Origin: an uncultured bacterium
GTDB taxonomy: Bacteria; Verrucomicrobiota; Lentisphaeria; Victivallales; UBA1829
Length of the DNA: 47,259 bases
Assembly (NCBI GenBank): GCA_949297765.1
Contig: CASFTV010000007.1
Coordinates: 1 to 47,259 of the forward strand
Direction of reading: 5' to 3'
Under the pieces are notes generated by a model. It had not been told where the DNA came from. It searched no databases and saw only the letters and a program-made list of their open reading frames with translations. The translations under genes and the position numbers were made by a program. Positions 39,983-47,259 of the stretch are shown in pieces (the stretch's first letter is position 1; every line of letters begins with the position of its first letter).

Positions 39983-42001
39983 TTATTCCGCAGTGGCTTC
40001 CAGCATTTCCTTCTTTGCGTCCTCCAGCTCGGAGGCCTGGAAGAATCTTCCGCCGACCATGACCTCGCCCGCTTTTCTGCGTGTGCAGGAGGGAGAGAAG
40101 GCGGTTTCGACCACCAGTTTGTCAGCGATGCCCTTCTGTGCCGCGAAATCGAGGATGTCGGCCAGAGTCTTTGCGCTGACCGCCTCATCGGTTCCGGGCG
40201 TGACGCAGACGGAGACGGCAACTTTTCTGGATGCCTTTCCCGAATCGACGACCTCAACGGCATCGAACACGCCGTTCCGGTTTTCGTAGACGGTGTGGAG
40301 CAGATGATGCGCCTTCTCCGAGTTCGGCTGACCGCCGAGGAATTTCTGATAGCAGTCGGCAAGCATGTGGTTTTCAAGAGAGTTCTTGAACTGCATGTTT
40401 TTGTCGCACTTGTAGGTGGCTTCCATACGGAGGGAGCGTTTGACCCGGTCGTTCTGGAGGGGCTGGCCGCCGCCGCAGACGCATCCGCCCGGACACGCCA
40501 TCACTTCGACAAAGTGGTACGGCGATTTGCCTTCCGCCGCCTCTTTCGCGATCTCGCGTGCGGCGCCGAGCGTATTGACCACCGCGATCTTCAGTTCAAG
40601 ATCGCCCGCCTTGATCGAGGTCTCCTTGAAGCGCTGGCTTCCGCGGACCTGTTTGAATTCGAGTCCGTGCATGGGAATTTCGCCGTTGATCTTGCCGACC
40701 GCATAGCGCAGCGCGGCTTCCATCACACCGCCGGAGCTTCCGAAAATCACGCCGGCTCCGGTACCGAAGCCGAAGGGCATGTCGAACGCATCCGGTTCGA
40801 GCTCTTCAAACTTGATTCCGAACGAGTCGATCATTCGGCCGATTTCCGTCGTGGTGAGGACGAAATCCACATCCGGGTTGCCGTCCACTTTGAATTTGTC
40901 GAGACCCGCTTCGAACTTCTTCGCGGTGCAGGGCATGATGGAAACCACCACGATCTCCTTGCGGTCGCGGCCGAGCATTTTCGGCAGTGCCTCCTTCATC
41001 ACCGAACCGAACATCTGCTGCGGAGAGCGGCAGGAGGAAAGATTCCTGCTCAGCGAGGGGAAGTTGATTTCCGCATACTTCACCCAGCCCGGGCAACAGG
41101 AGGTGAACATCGGGAACGGTCCACCCGCCTTGACCCGGCGGAGGAACTCTTCGGCCTCTTCCCAGATGGTCATATCCGCGGCAAAGGTGGTGTCGTAGAC
41201 ATAGTCGAAGCCCATCTTGCGGAGCGCCGCGACCAGTTTTCCCGCAACGTTCTGTCCGGCGCTCTGATCGAAGAACTCCGCCAGAGCAAAACGGACCGCC
41301 GGAGCCACCTGCGCAACCACAATCTTATCCGGATCGTGAATGGCTCCCCAGACATCCTCGCGGTTCTGGTGCGGAATGATTGCGCCGGTCGGGCAGACCG
41401 CGGCACACTGTCCGCAGTTGATGCACTCCACTTCATTGAGTCCTTTGTCGAACGCGGGAACGACTTTGGCCTTGGATCCGCGGAAGGCGAATCCGATCGC
41501 ACCGATTCCCTGCACTTCCGTACACATTCTCACGCAGTCGCCGCAGAGCACGCATTTATTCGGATCGCGCTCCAGGGAGGGAGAGCTCTTGTCGACCGGC
41601 TCCAGATCCTTGAGCTGTTTGTAGCGGATGGTCTCCACGCCGAGACGGCGGGCAAGATTCTGCAGCGTGCAGCTCGCACTCCGGACGCAGGAAGGACATT
41701 CCCGTTTGTGGTTCGCCAGCAGCAGTTCAATGTTGATTTTCCGGATTTCGCGAAGCTGTTTCGTATCGGTCCGGATGACCATTCCGTTTTCCGGCGGAGT
41801 TGAGCAGGCGGCCATGATGCCGCGTTTTTCCACCTCGACAAGGCAGAGACGGCAGGCACCGTACACGCTCAGGTCGGAGTGATAGCAGAACGTCGGAAGT
41901 TCAATCCCGGTCTTGCGGATGACCTCAAGAAGATTGCGTTCTCCCTGAATCTCAACCGGAATACCGTTGACGGTAAGAGTTTTTACAGCAGGTGTTGTCA
42001 T
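39983..42001 (-). CDS. hydA: [FeFe] hydrogenase catalytic subunit HydA (bifurcating type)
   Basis: This 672-residue protein makes or uses H2. The order is: [2Fe-2S] domain (Cys39, 50, 53, 66); His/Cys [4Fe-4S] site (HKRECPSC, about 98-111); two ferredoxin clusters (CVLCGDCVRMC at 150-160, CINCGQCAAVC at 193-203); then the H-cluster motifs TSCCPGW (300-306, proton-relay Cys303), MPCTAKKFE (357 on) and MACPGGCVCGGGQP (501-514). The multi-cluster layout and the hydC-hydB partners mark the NAD/ferredoxin electron-bifurcating group. A C-terminal domain (about 590-672) resembles a thioredoxin-like [2Fe-2S] domain but retains only Cys599 and Cys639. Maturases HydE/F/G are not in the window. Confidence 0.95.
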   Translation of the reverse strand: MTTPAVKTLTVNGIPVEIQGERNLLEVIRKTGIELPTFCYHSDLSVYGACRLCLVEVEKRGIMAACSTPPENGMVIRTDTKQLREIRKINIELLLANHKRECPSCVRSASCTLQNLARRLGVETIRYKQLKDLEPVDKSSPSLERDPNKCVLCGDCVRMCTEVQGIGAIGFAFRGSKAKVVPAFDKGLNEVECINCGQCAAVCPTGAIIPHQNREDVWGAIHDPDKIVVAQVAPAVRFALAEFFDQSAGQNVAGKLVAALRKMGFDYVYDTTFAADMTIWEEAEEFLRRVKAGGPFPMFTSCCPGWVKYAEINFPSLSRNLSSCRSPQQMFGSVMKEALPKMLGRDRKEIVVVSIMPCTAKKFEAGLDKFKVDGNPDVDFVLTTTEIGRMIDSFGIKFEELEPDAFDMPFGFGTGAGVIFGSSGGVMEAALRYAVGKINGEIPMHGLEFKQVRGSQRFKETSIKAGDLELKIAVVNTLGAAREIAKEAAEGKSPYHFVEVMACPGGCVCGGGQPLQNDRVKRSLRMEATYKCDKNMQFKNSLENHMLADCYQKFLGGQPNSEKAHHLLHTVYENRNGVFDAVEVVDSGKASRKVAVSVCVTPGTDEAVSAKTLADILDFAAQKGIADKLVVETAFSPSCTRRKAGEVMVGGRFFQASELEDAKKEMLEATAE

Positions 42002-42022: not shown

Positions 42023-43933
42023 TTAAATTCCGGTTATGGCGGAGAACTTGCACGCGGCTTTGCAGGCGCCGCACTTGATGCACTTGGCCGCATCAATCAC
42101 AAACGGCTTGCGGATTTCGCCGGAAATCGCGCCCACCGGGCATTTTCTTGCGCACGCGGAGCAGCCTTTGCACTTCTTCGGATCAATCTCGGGACGGGCA
42201 AGCGCCTTGCACTGACCGGCCGGACACCGTTTCTCACGGACGTGGATCAGATACTCCTCCCGGAAATGTTTCAGCGTGGAGAGAACCGGATTCGGCGCCG
42301 TCTTGCCGAGTCCGCACAGCGACCCCATCTGAACCGCTTTCGCGGTCTGTTCGAGGAGGTCAAGAGTGCTTTCATCGGCACGGCCTTTCGTGATGTCGTC
42401 GAGCAGGGCGAGCATCTGTTTGGTGCCTTCCCGGCACGGGACGCATTTGCCGCACGATTCGTTCTGCGTGAAGTGCATGAAGAATTTTGCAACCGCGACC
42501 ATGCAGGTATTGGTGTTCATCACCACCAGTCCGCCCGAACCGACCATCGCGCCGACGCTCTTCAGGGAGTCGAAGTCCAGCGGAAGGCCGAGCATCTCCT
42601 TCGTCAGACAGCCGCCCGAAGGACCGCCGATCTGGACGGATTTGAAATTGTCAATCGAAACTTTTCCGTTCGAATCGGTCACGCCGCCGCCGATCTCGTT
42701 GACGATCTCGCCGAGCGTGGTTCCGAACGGGACTTCGATCAGGCCCGTATTCGCCACATGACCGGTCAGAGCAAATGTCTTGGTACCGGGAGAGGTCGGA
42801 ACGCCCAGTTCGCGGAACTTGGCGGCTCCTTCGCGGATCACATACGGAACCGTTCCGAGCGTTTCCACGTTGTTGATCACGGTCGGCTTGCCCCAGAGAC
42901 CGCACTGTGCCGGGAACGGGGGCTTCGGCATCGGCATGCCGCGCTTTCCTTCGATCGACGCCATCAGAGCGGTCTCTTCGCCGCAGACGAAGGCGCCGGC
43001 GCCTTCCATCACATTGATGCGGAAGGAGAGCCCGCTTCCGAAGATGTCGTCGCCGAGAACACCGGCCTCTTCCGCGTCCTTCACGGCCTTGCGCATCCGG
43101 ACGACCGCCAGCGGATATTCGGCGCGCACATAGACATAACCTTCATCCGCACCGATCGCGCGGGCTGCGATCATCATGCCTTCGATCACCGAGTGGGGAT
43201 TTCCCTCCATCACGGAGCGGTCCATGAAGGCTCCCGGGTCGCCCTCGTCGCCGTTGCAGATCACATATTTTTTCGGGCCGGGGGACGCAAGCGTGAATTT
43301 CCATTTCCGTCCGGTCGGGAAACCGCCGCCTCCGCGTCCGCGCAGTCCCGATTCCTCCATCACGGAGCAGACCTCTTCCGGCGTCATCTGGGTATAGGCC
43401 TTCAGGGCGGCGAGGTAACCTTTCTTGTGGAAATATTCGCCGATGCTGTCCGGTTCAATCGTGCAGTTCGCCAGAACAAGGCGGTGCTGACGGTTGTAGA
43501 ACGGGATTTCATGTTCCCCTTTGTAGCGTTTGCCGTCGGAAGGATTCATATAGAGGAGGCGTTCGATCACGCTGTGCTTGATGATCGTCTCCTGAACGAT
43601 TTCAAGGGCGTCTTCCGGACGGACCTTGGTATAGATGATGCCGTCCGGCTCAATGCGGACGAGCGGTCCCATCTGACAGAATCCCTGGCAGCCGCTCTTG
43701 GAAACGTAGGTGGAGCCCGGATGGACATGATCGGCGGAATCATGTTCCAGATCGACTTCGACAAACTGTCCGGCTTTTTTCAGTTCTTCAACGAGAGCAT
43801 CCCGAACCCGGAGCGATCCGTTCGCCACGCAGCCCGTACCTCCGCAGACAATGATCCGACGGGCGATTTTTGCCGCTTTCGCCTCGTAATCGCGGATCCG
43901 TTTTTCGACATCAGCCGCAGTCAGTTTCGCCAT
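42023..43933 (-). CDS. hydB: Hydrogenase flavoprotein subunit HydB (NuoF-like)
   Basis: This 636-residue subunit carries the FMN that splits electrons between NAD and ferredoxin. It has an N-terminal thioredoxin-like [2Fe-2S] domain (VCGGTGC then SGCQGFC), the FMN-binding GRGGGGFPTGRKW, and the NADH/FMN region CNGDEGDPGAFMDR. The [4Fe-4S] motif is ESCGKCVPCREGT. A C-terminal 2[4Fe-4S] ferredoxin follows (CKGCSACARKCPVGA and CIKCGACKAACKFSA). All expected cysteines are present. Its ATG shares one base with the hydC stop (TAATG), and hydA follows after 21 bp. A GAGGTGG site lies in the end of hydC. Confidence 0.95.
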   Translation of the reverse strand: MAKLTAADVEKRIRDYEAKAAKIARRIIVCGGTGCVANGSLRVRDALVEELKKAGQFVEVDLEHDSADHVHPGSTYVSKSGCQGFCQMGPLVRIEPDGIIYTKVRPEDALEIVQETIIKHSVIERLLYMNPSDGKRYKGEHEIPFYNRQHRLVLANCTIEPDSIGEYFHKKGYLAALKAYTQMTPEEVCSVMEESGLRGRGGGGFPTGRKWKFTLASPGPKKYVICNGDEGDPGAFMDRSVMEGNPHSVIEGMMIAARAIGADEGYVYVRAEYPLAVVRMRKAVKDAEEAGVLGDDIFGSGLSFRINVMEGAGAFVCGEETALMASIEGKRGMPMPKPPFPAQCGLWGKPTVINNVETLGTVPYVIREGAAKFRELGVPTSPGTKTFALTGHVANTGLIEVPFGTTLGEIVNEIGGGVTDSNGKVSIDNFKSVQIGGPSGGCLTKEMLGLPLDFDSLKSVGAMVGSGGLVVMNTNTCMVAVAKFFMHFTQNESCGKCVPCREGTKQMLALLDDITKGRADESTLDLLEQTAKAVQMGSLCGLGKTAPNPVLSTLKHFREEYLIHVREKRCPAGQCKALARPEIDPKKCKGCSACARKCPVGAISGEIRKPFVIDAAKCIKCGACKAACKFSAITGI

Positions 43934-44463
43934 TATGCCACCTCGCTGGAGTTTTTCGCCTGTCTGGCCAGAAGTTCATCAATGATTTTCGGGATATCGG
44001 AGGGTTTGACCTGGCCGTGCACTTCATCGTTCACAAGCATGACCGGGGCGAGACCGCAGGCGCCGAGGCAGCTGACGGTTTCCACCGTGAACATCATGTC
44101 GTCGGTGCTGTCGCGGTCGGGCTTGATGTTGAGCTTTTCATACAGCGCGTCGAGGATCGAGGTGGAGCCTTTGACGTGGCAGGCGGTTCCGTCGCAGAGA
44201 CGGATGATGTTCTTGCCTTTCGGCTTCAGAGAAAAGTGTGCGTAGAAGGTCGCAACACCATACACCCGGGCGGGCGGGAGACCGAGTGCGCAGGCAATGT
44301 AGCTCAGAAGCTCCTTGGAGAGCCAGTTGTAGCGGGCCTGGACCGCCTGCAGGATCGGCACGAGCTTGGTTTTGTCGTAGTTGTACTCCCGGAGGACGGC
44401 CTCGGCGTCCTCCATGCGCGATACGGCTTTTTCCGCTTCGCGCATCGTTGCTGTTGCTTCCAT
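43933..44463 (-). CDS. hydC: Hydrogenase subunit HydC (NuoE-like [2Fe-2S] protein)
   Basis: With the ATG at 44463 (AGGAGG eight bases upstream) the protein has 176 residues. An N-terminal helical bundle (YNWLSKELLSYIACALGLPPARVYGVATFYAHF) precedes a thioredoxin-like [2Fe-2S] domain with CDGTACHVKGS and CLGACGLAPVM, the four NuoE cysteines. It passes electrons within the HydABC complex. The frame upstream of 44463 has no support. It is the first gene of hydC-hydB-hydA, with a promoter at 44625-44653 and a leader of about 155 nt. Confidence 0.95.
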   Translation of the reverse strand: MEATATMREAEKAVSRMEDAEAVLREYNYDKTKLVPILQAVQARYNWLSKELLSYIACALGLPPARVYGVATFYAHFSLKPKGKNIIRLCDGTACHVKGSTSILDALYEKLNIKPDRDSTDDMMFTVETVSCLGACGLAPVMLVNDEVHGQVKPSDIPKIIDELLARQAKNSSEVA

Positions 44464-44604
44464 TCTTGTTCCTCCTGTTATGGATAAAATCTTTATTTTC
44501 CGGCGTCTCCGGTCCGTGATTCGGGCACGGAATCCTCCCGGACGCATCCCGGTTCGCGGAAAACCGGAAACGCATCCCGGAGATTTTCTCATCCAAAAAA
44601 ATTT

Positions 44605-44622
44605 TCGTGATTCGTTTCACAG
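44605..44622. promoter_or_regulatory. Rex-like operator candidate at the hyd promoter
   Basis: The 18-bp site keeps the GTGA-N6-TCAC core of the Rex box (TTGTGAA-N4-TTCACAA) and matches 11 of its 14 defined bases. It lies directly downstream of the -10 box, over the predicted transcription start. Rex senses NADH/NAD+ and is known to control hydrogenase genes in anaerobes. No Rex gene is in the window. Confidence 0.45.
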
Positions 44623-44624
44623 TT

Positions 44625-44653
44625 AATATAGCAATCTTTGCCGCGAATTGCAA
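44625..44653 (-). promoter_or_regulatory. hydCBA promoter
   Basis: On the minus strand -35 TTGCAA (44653-44648) and -10 TATATT (44630-44625) are separated by 17 bp, predicting a start near 44618 and a leader of about 155 nt before hydC. The leader carries an 11-bp direct repeat ACGCATCCCGG (44542-44552 and 44570-44580). Confidence 0.55.
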
Positions 44654-45038
44654 ATACAGACTCAAATTTTTTATGCTTTCACAGCGGTTCAAGGCTAATT
44701 TTTTTCCATTTTTCACACAAGATTCCCCCGGAGGATGCAGCCTCCTGAAATGTGCATTTTTCACAGCAAAACAGTCATACAAATTCTGTGGTTCATCCCG
44801 CAGAGAATCCAGATGGATGAAAATGGAATCCAAACAAAGAGGAGTCTTCCCTTCCCTGCACGTTTTTTCTTTTTCTATATTTTGTAGGAAGGAGGAAATC
44901 AGGATTCCCGCGCCGGGAAACTTCTCCGGAGAGAAAACGGAAATCGAATTTTTTCCACGAATCCCCCAGAGTCCTCCTGAAAAATTGGAAAAAAGGATCT
45001 TTTTTATGTTTTTTTTCCATTTTTTTCTCTTTTCCCTC
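44654..45038. other. AT-rich intergenic region between the divergent hyd operon and cold-shock gene
   Basis: No gene is called. Small inverted repeats occur: GGAGG/CCTCC at 44730-44745, TTCCCG/CGGGAA at 44905-44919, and the palindrome TCTCCGGAGA at 44923-44932. A Shine-Dalgarno-like GGAAGGAGG (about 44887-44895) has no start codon close after it. Long T-runs lie at 44990-45035. An open frame through this stretch is low-complexity and lacks a start signal. Confidence 0.45.
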
Positions 45039-45067
45039 TTCACAAAATCAAATTTATGTTGCATAAT
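45039..45067 (+). promoter_or_regulatory. Cold-shock gene promoter
   Basis: -35 TTCACA (45039-45044) and -10 CATAAT (45062-45067) are 17 bp apart, predicting a leader of about 85 nt. A TATATA (45068-45073) next to it is an alternative -10 without a well-spaced -35. Confidence 0.4.
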
Positions 45068-45094
45068 TATATAGTGGAAGGGGGACACCCTCCG

Positions 45095-45136
45095 GAACCG
45101 ACCGGAAAGAAAACGGGGATCTTCCGGCAGCGGTTC
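45095..45136 (+). promoter_or_regulatory. Stem-loop in the cold-shock mRNA leader
   Basis: GAACCG (45095-45100) can pair with CGGTTC (45131-45136), and directly inside it CCGGAA (45102-45107) with TTCCGG (45122-45127). This gives a 6+6 bp bulged stem with a 14-base loop ending 25 bases before the ATG. Cold-shock leaders often fold to control translation; a regulatory role is inferred. Confidence 0.45.
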
Positions 45137-45161
45137 AAGCAACAAAGTCAGGAGAGAAACA

Positions 45162-45374
45162 ATGAGCAAGGAAAAAGGCAAGGTCAAGTGGTTCAACAAC
45201 GCAAAGGGCTTCGGCTTCATTGAGCGGGAACAGGGCGGCGATATCTTCGTCCATTACAGCTCGATCAAAGTCGACGGATACCGGACCCTGAAAGAGGGGC
45301 AGATGGTGGAATTCATCGTCTCCCAGGGAGAAAAAGGTCTCCAGGCCGACGAAGTCGTCGCGCTTTCCGAATAA
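45162..45374 (+). CDS. Cold-shock domain protein (CspA family)
   Basis: This 70-residue protein is a single OB-fold cold-shock domain with RNP1 KGFGFIE (about 15-21) and RNP2 IFVHYSSI (about 28-35), plus the family start [15 protein letters not shown]. It binds single-stranded RNA and melts structure, aiding translation in the cold or at growth resumption. An AGGAGA site precedes the ATG, a structured leader lies upstream, and a strong terminator follows, so it is a monocistronic unit. Confidence 0.95.
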
Positions 45375-46470: not shown

Positions 46471-47259
46471 TCAGTCGCGTCCGGAGCGGGCGTCCAGGCC
46501 GAATCGTTTCAGGATCTCCGCCGCATGGCGGAGCATCGCATCGGCGGGAGCTTCCGCCTGCGGCATCGTATCGGCCATCCCGAGCGCGGCATATTTCGAG
46601 CGGGCAAGCGAATGATACGGAAGGATTTTGACGCATTCGATTTTCAATTCCCCGAGGAATCGTCCGGCAGCCTCCATTACGGCATCGGAATCGTTGCAGC
46701 CCGGAACAAACGGAATCCGGATCTCGATCTCCGCCCCCTCTCCGGAAAGGAAGCGGAGATTGTCGATGATCCGTTCATTCGGCTGTCCGGTCAGTTTCCG
46801 GTGAACTGCGGAATCGGGATGTTTGAAATCCACGAGAAAGCGGTCCGTAACCGGCAGAACCGCCCGCAGCGTTTCGCGGGGGACAAACGCGCAGGTATCC
46901 ACGGCGGTGTGGATTCCCGCCTGCTTGAGTTTCCTCAGAAATTCGAGAGCAAACTCCGGCTGGAGAAGCGGTTCGCCGCCCGACAGAGTGACTCCGCCGC
47001 CGGAGTTCCGATAGAAATCCTGATCCTCCAGAGCGATATCCAGCGCCTCCTCCACGCTCATTTTCCTGCCGTACAGTTTCAGGGCGGAACCGAGACAGAC
47101 GCTCTCGCACGCGCCGCAGACTTTGCAGAGGGTAAAATCCATCCGATGCCGCTCCCCCCGGAAGGAGTGCGCTCCGGAAGGACAGACGGGAACGCATTCC
47201 CCGCACGAAATACATTTATGGGAGTACCATGCGATCTGCGGCTTCGGCGAAATGCTTTC
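46471..47259 (-). CDS. Glycyl-radical enzyme activating protein (PflA family, with ferredoxin insert), 5' end missing
   Basis: The reading frame is open to the right edge, so the N-terminus is outside the window. Visible are two [4Fe-4S] motifs, CISCGECVPVCPSGA (encoded upstream of 47142) and CKVCGACESVCLGSA, forming the ferredoxin insert of larger activases. The radical-SAM barrel follows, with GGGVTLSGGEPLLQPEF, AVDTCAFV, LVDFKH and LPYHSLARSKYAALG. The radical-SAM CxxxCxxC itself lies beyond the edge. The Met at 47142 is internal, between the two cluster motifs. It installs the glycyl radical on a partner enzyme (pyruvate formate-lyase, diol or choline type); that partner is probably just outside the window. 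Confidence 0.9.
   Translation of the reverse strand, partial: ESISPKPQIAWYSHKCISCGECVPVCPSGAHSFRGERHRMDFTLCKVCGACESVCLGSALKLYGRKMSVEEALDIALEDQDFYRNSGGGVTLSGGEPLLQPEFALEFLRKLKQAGIHTAVDTCAFVPRETLRAVLPVTDRFLVDFKHPDSAVHRKLTGQPNERIIDNLRFLSGEGAEIEIRIPFVPGCNDSDAVMEAAGRFLGELKIECVKILPYHSLARSKYAALGMADTMPQAEAPADAMLRHAAEILKRFGLDARSGRD

Follow-up and report, generated by a model that had tools for sequence, protein, structure and literature searches.

A conserved Rex-type operator before a trimeric [FeFe]-hydrogenase operon and a candidate Rex regulon in an uncultured genus of the Lentisphaerota

What decides when an uncultured member of the Lentisphaerota makes hydrogen? The question is raised by a 47,259-nucleotide stretch of DNA, here called the window, in which a short palindrome lies at the promoter of an [FeFe]-hydrogenase operon. 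The window belongs to a genome of 4.23 Mb in 92 contigs (98% complete) assigned to the Victivallales; this order belongs to the Lentisphaerota, and the affiliation proposed by a first-pass annotation, made from the letters alone, fits.

The hydrogenase operon and its promoter

The operon comprises three genes on the minus strand. The first encodes a NuoE-like subunit (43933-44463; PF01257), whose ATG at 44463 and ribosome site align in three genomes of the same genus. It is followed by a NuoF-like, FMN/NADH-binding subunit with a C-terminal ferredoxin domain (42023-43933; PF01512, PF10589, PF00037) and by the catalytic subunit of a group A [FeFe]-hydrogenase (39983-42001; PF02906, PF02256), which exceeds the cut-off of TIGR02512 (471.4 versus 405.95 bits). 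Genes of NuoE, NuoF and group A HydA type in a row are common to this operon and to the trimeric NAD-linked (Thermotoga-type) HydABC. HydABC bifurcates, and the first-pass annotation named the window's enzyme accordingly; for the window operon the likeness is one of subunits only, its catalytic subunit falling narrowly below NF040763, the NCBIfam model of the NADH-dependent group A6 (735.5 versus 765 bits). That the three genes encode a NAD-linked trimeric [FeFe]-hydrogenase is well supported by their domains, which do not separate a bifurcating from a plain NADH-dependent enzyme. At the edge of the window (46471-47259), a gene resembling radical-SAM activating enzymes was seen by eye.

The palindrome occupies positions 44605-44622, reads TCGTGATTCGTTTCACAG on the plus and CTGTGAAACGAATCACGA on the minus strand, and has an exact GTGA-N6-TCAC core at 44607-44620. 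Against TTGTGAANNNNTTCACAA, the Rex consensus given in PMC2883068, it has three mismatches, that is, 11 of 14 consensus bases. A consensus scan placed a sigma70-like promoter on the minus strand directly ahead of it, with a -35 hexamer TTGCAA at 44648-44653 (TTGACT in the three same-genus genomes), a spacer of 17 and a -10 hexamer TATATT at 44625-44630 (identical in all three); it matches 9 of 12 consensus positions and carries a TG ahead of the second hexamer. On the transcribed strand the operator begins 2 nt past the -10, and the predicted start, about 7 nt past the -10 and so near 44618, would lie within it. The first-pass annotation had described just this arrangement, an 11-of-14 site over the presumed start behind a good promoter, and in these respects it holds. 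Another word of Rex type, TTGTTAANNNNTTAACAA, has no match within the window.

Within the window alone the site is not significant, as chance predicts: 1.2 matches are expected for a site of 11 of 14 bases, with at least one in 66 of 100 shuffles, and 0.56 for the bare core, with at least one in 42 of 100 shuffles. A palindrome without function, of which one would be expected here by chance, would account for the site as long as no other genome is consulted.

Conservation of the site and the Rex protein

The picture is different once relatives are compared. We took 30 loci, those of the best NuoE-like matches, and scanned 600 nt upstream of the orthologous gene. Thirteen exact cores were found in nine loci, against a mean of 0.22 and a maximum of two in 500 Markov resamplings, and because of this comparison the site stands far beyond chance. 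The core is present in all four genomes of the window's genus (hereafter g1), in all four of a second genus (g3, two sites each) and in the single genome of a third (g5), and in all nine genomes the gene-proximal core lies at the same place, a few bases past a -10-like hexamer: 2 nt past the called -10 in g1 and g5, and six bases past TATAGT, as read by eye, in g3. The reading as a functionless palindrome is in effect refuted, and we give it next to no credence. In the remaining 21 loci the scanned 600 nt contain no exact core. They include the ten loci of genus g6, although rex is present in nine of these, and one locus (L019, genome G041) that carries a site with two mismatches. In the g3 loci (L006-L009) the two cores before the hydrogenase gene lie about 159 nt apart, a spacing at which looping might occur.

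The site could also be thought to serve the divergent cold-shock-like gene that begins at 45162 on the plus strand, given that both genes share the gap 44464-45161. It lies about 540 nt from that gene, as opposed to 2 nt past the hydrogenase -10, and at the three same-genus loci no cold-shock-like gene was found in 1.5 kb upstream, though the site is kept. We consider this assignment hardly credible. Rfam matches in the window's gap were far below the gathering threshold.

The genome encodes a protein that would recognise such a site. A rex gene, whose presence the annotation had made a matter to check, is there: a single PF06971 match was found (48.8 bits; start taken at L032:1521, end at 2162), its product also carries the Rossmann-type domain PF02629 (77.4 bits), both above cut-off, and three of the nine NCBIfam Rex models listed are exceeded, namely NF003995 (210.5 versus 126 bits), NF003994 and NF003996, the other six scoring below. 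The eight best matches in the PDB are all Rex or Rex-like proteins, the best being 2vt2, a Rex, with the GVGNLG stretch aligned. The rex promoter, TTGACG-17-TATACT, has an operator of its own, CTGTGAACAATCTCACAA, which begins 3 nt past the -10 and ends 32 nt ahead of the ATG; in the three same-genus genomes it begins 2 nt past the -10. A site thus lies at the rex promoter in all four genomes of the genus, the arrangement of an autoregulated gene, and one with at most two mismatches stands within 350 nt upstream in 11 of 30 rex loci. Directly behind rex, which heads the operon, lies a second set of [FeFe]-hydrogenase subunit genes. By manual count among the matches listed, at least 24 of 61 genomes have a rex match and a NuoE-like match no more than about 1.1 kb apart. 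Right after the second hydrogenase operon, a receiver-domain-like gene (L032:6371-6841) was noted by eye.

The same half-site, TGTGA, is that of CRP/FNR-type regulators, and the CRP consensus accommodates TGTGA-N6-TCAC; moreover, the genome has 26 matches to PF13545. However, among the ORFs at the best eight of these 26, seven have a GntR match over cut-off and the eighth has only weak helix-turn-helix matches, and none of the eight has a cNMP-binding domain at E 0.001. Given also that in four genomes the promoter of rex itself carries the site, and that it sits just past the -10, a place where CRP/FNR activators are not known to bind, we regard a CRP/FNR-type regulator as improbable. It is highly probable, in our judgement, that 44605-44622 is an operator of the NADH-sensing repressor Rex.

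Further sites and a candidate small RNA

If so, what else would Rex control? The genome contains the pattern GTGAWNNNNWTCAC at 16 places and the same pattern read backward at none; four of the 16 are promoter-type, 11 lie within longer ORFs and one is at a gene junction. The pattern TGTGANNNNNNTCAC (TGTGA-N6-TCAC) occurs at 19 distinct places, of which five are promoter-type, 13 lie within longer ORFs and one is at a gene junction (C7:54748, set aside for that position). The five belong to rex, the window's hydrogenase operon, pckG (C3:155365), serA (C5:74553) and a candidate RNA (C6:69283). Here 'promoter-type' is a judgement resting on conservation, as mechanically called ORFs overlap these five sites too and were set aside as antisense or too short. 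Sites with three mismatches number 163 genome-wide, against 61 for the control, a number that was discarded as a measure of regulon size since of the 11 two-mismatch sites seven lie within longer ORFs and the three-mismatch sites were listed only into contig 6.

The pckG product, a PEP carboxykinase, is over the cut-off of NF003253, and that of serA, a phosphoglycerate dehydrogenase, has the Pfam 2-hydroxyacid dehydrogenase domains but reaches only 379 of the 454 bits of the phosphoglycerate dehydrogenase model. A site with at most two mismatches lies within 350 nt upstream of pckG in 7 of 30 loci, one of which came without upstream sequence, including all four of g1 and all three retrieved from g3; for serA the count is 4 of 30, in g1 only, the three g3 loci lacking the site. 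When 37 upstream regions of five genes were selected by hand from g1 and g3, 24 had a site with at most two mismatches, whereas 209 permuted half-sites gave a mean of 0.05 and a maximum of four. Five further regions have a site with three mismatches; the best site in the last eight has more, in one of these eight (L006) because the 450-nt cut clipped it. Across the four g1 genomes, eight of eight core positions are invariant at each of the five promoters, compared with 12-43% of the 60-nt flanks; among the roughly 263-307 windows of each promoter region, 2 to 11 equal the operator core in invariance. The motif, which the annotation had proposed to look for upstream of other fermentation genes, was found ahead of further genes of redox or central metabolism, namely rex with the second [FeFe]-hydrogenase operon, pckG and serA. 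In substance the annotation's reading is supported, neither of the two outcomes it named as refuting having been observed. Besides the hydrogenase operons and rex, the regulon would seem to take in pckG, serA and the candidate RNA.

Two arrangements can be told apart. In g1, the operators of the hydrogenase operon and of rex begin 2-3 nt past the -10 (8 of 8). At pckG, the promoter (TTGAAA-17-TATA[AG]T, 10-11 of 12 consensus matches) has the end of its -10 82-84 nt past the operator start in all four genomes; at the candidate RNA, that distance is 69 nt, again in all four, with a promoter of only 8 of 12. From these distances, the sites would therefore lie near -80 (pckG) and -67 (RNA) of the predicted start, from where Rex might either activate or repress in some other way. 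For serA there is a weak promoter candidate only, called in the window's genome.

The site at C6:69283 lies between two convergent genes, and the block that follows it on the minus strand has counterparts of 82-84% identity in the three same-genus genomes, at loci where a search gave no match to thiG or the ligase. The site and the candidate RNA together span L035:2816-3001 (C6:69115-69300, minus strand), the RNA being about 106 nt long (L035:2822-2927) with two hairpins, and the Rex site lies 56 nt ahead of the start of the RNA model in all four genomes. Its alignment contains seven copies, four with a Rex site and three tandem second copies without one of their own. Five of the 11 pairs of the first hairpin are changed on both sides. 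Standard pairing amounts to 98.1% versus 94.2% in shuffles (reached by 0 of 500) and to 32-43% when the structure is slid, and the covariation score was likewise reached by none of 500 shuffles; as many doubly changed pairs, however, arose in 37 of 500 shuffles and as many pair types in 469 of 500. In the window's genome, L035:2822-2980 has a folding z-score of -6.5. Across the seven copies CTCTCTCCTTTGTTGCAGCCCCGTACCG is invariant, the RNA carries an invariant anti-Shine-Dalgarno stretch, and the second hairpin with its T-run looks like a terminator.

Run on 100 genomes, the model of this RNA (R1) gave matches in 11, all four of the genus and seven more. Five of the seven distant matches keep CTCTCTCCTTTGTTG, and the two weakest (G050 and G043) do not; the Rex site is missing from all seven. 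The word CTCTCTCCTTTGTTGNNGCCCCG was found in eight GTDB stretches, five from Victivallales and one each from a Lentisphaeria member, an uncultured bacterium and a Curvibacter. At six RNA loci Rfam gave no match at the gathering threshold; nor did the candidate match Acido-Lenti-1, a structured RNA of Lentisphaerae known from PMC2864571 and included in Rfam.

A word GGAAC-N17-GTC stands 22 nt ahead of the RNA model start in the seven genus copies (L116-L119, L127-L129) and occurs also in L123, L124 and L126, while TATATT precedes the first copies only. We take this word to resemble a promoter of ECF-type sigma factors, which suggests that such a promoter precedes the RNA copies. In the three relatives, the tandem second copy, which has no Rex site of its own, lies beside a gene that by eye is PstS-like. 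In one family member, G021 (C87:20317-22584; L124, L148), the RNA homologue adjoins a divergent PEP carboxykinase gene, which in the window's genus has a Rex-type site.

Targets of the RNA were sought through its seed. On both strands of the four genus genomes, the pattern CAAAGN{0,4}GAGAGA is found scarcely more often than its reversed control (17 versus 19 in the window's own genome, 18 versus 18 in G003, 26 versus 19 in G002 and 24 versus 19 in G001), and 27 of the 46 contiguous seed matches taken lack, within about 21 nt, a start codon that opens an ORF. Two orthologous pairs, one of them RnfA-like, are common to G002 and G003. At the start of the RnfA-like gene, as judged by eye (L237:1208 and L254:1206), lies CAAAGGAGAGA, which is complementary to part of the RNA seed; no rnfA start could be located in the stretch taken from the window's genome, which gave a 36% match to another protein. 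In the window, the cold-shock-like gene (45162-45374, plus strand) has gcaacaaagtcaggagaga ahead of its ATG (45137-45164), nearly complementary to the seed. This duplex reaches -21.7 kcal/mol, equalled by 3 of 300 shuffled seeds; 11 genes were tried, with gyrA at 14 of 300 and clpB at 24 of 300, and we simply note the match.

Proposed mechanism and comparison with known systems

Based on these observations, we propose the following model. When NADH is low, Rex would sit on 44605-44622 and keep the three-subunit hydrogenase operon (44463 down to 39983) from being transcribed. Once NADH rises, it would be bound by Rex, Rex would release the DNA, the hydrogenase would be made and electrons would leave the cell as H2; that NADH relieves the repression is very likely from what is typical of the Rex family. 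A like geometry would let Rex repress its own gene together with the second hydrogenase operon that follows it. More tentatively, and with the balance tipped slightly against it, we suggest jointly that Rex controls a trans-acting small RNA, which would mask ribosome sites via CUCUCUCCUUUGUUGC, and that Rex uses two geometries. In the former part, the RNA at L035:2822-2927 (minus strand), with its invariant CUCUCUCCUUUGUUGC, would relay NADH status post-transcriptionally in the manner of RoxS, with an independent origin; in the latter, Rex would be a roadblock where it binds the promoters of the hydrogenase and of rex, and at the RNA and pckG it would act from about -67 or -80, possibly as an activator.

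Knowledge of Rex regulons comes chiefly from Firmicutes, Actinobacteria and some other phyla. Our literature search, which left subscription journals mostly outside and so does not prove absence, returned no report on Rex, NADH and hydrogenase in Lentisphaerae, and Verrucomicrobia are not named among the Rex papers listed. The operator itself belongs to a type already known; for its phylum the literature searched contains no Rex report. The five promoters, a compact and conserved set, yield a prediction of when this uncultured genus of the Lentisphaerota makes H2.

A close parallel is the Rex regulon of Caldicellulosiruptor bescii, a member of the Firmicutes, in which rex itself, the Hyd [FeFe]-hydrogenase operon and a phosphoglycerate dehydrogenase operon are preceded by sites (PMC6391272), the same three kinds of target as here; the examined text of that paper differs in naming neither PEP carboxykinase nor a small RNA. 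It also reports that, despite Rex binding upstream, deletion of rex changed Hyd operon expression by log2 values of -0.13 to -0.38, that is, without derepression. The operator TTGTGAAW4TTCACAA of S. aureus Rex (PMC2883068) agrees with that of the window in word and spacing, and its targets there are anaerobically induced genes.

For the small RNA, the comparison is with RoxS of B. subtilis, which is repressed by Rex and has its Rex site immediately downstream of the start (PMC5419742). Like RoxS, a small RNA with C-rich regions and a Rex site at its promoter, the candidate has an unpaired stretch rich in C, and a Rex-type site lies close to its promoter, features that it has in common with RoxS/RsaE; in contrast to RoxS as described there, the site of the candidate lies upstream of the predicted start, and the candidate has no Rfam match. 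If true, a Rex-linked small RNA in this genus would be a second, independent coupling of NADH sensing to an RNA regulator, one that resembles RoxS/RsaE in its logic and not in family or sequence.
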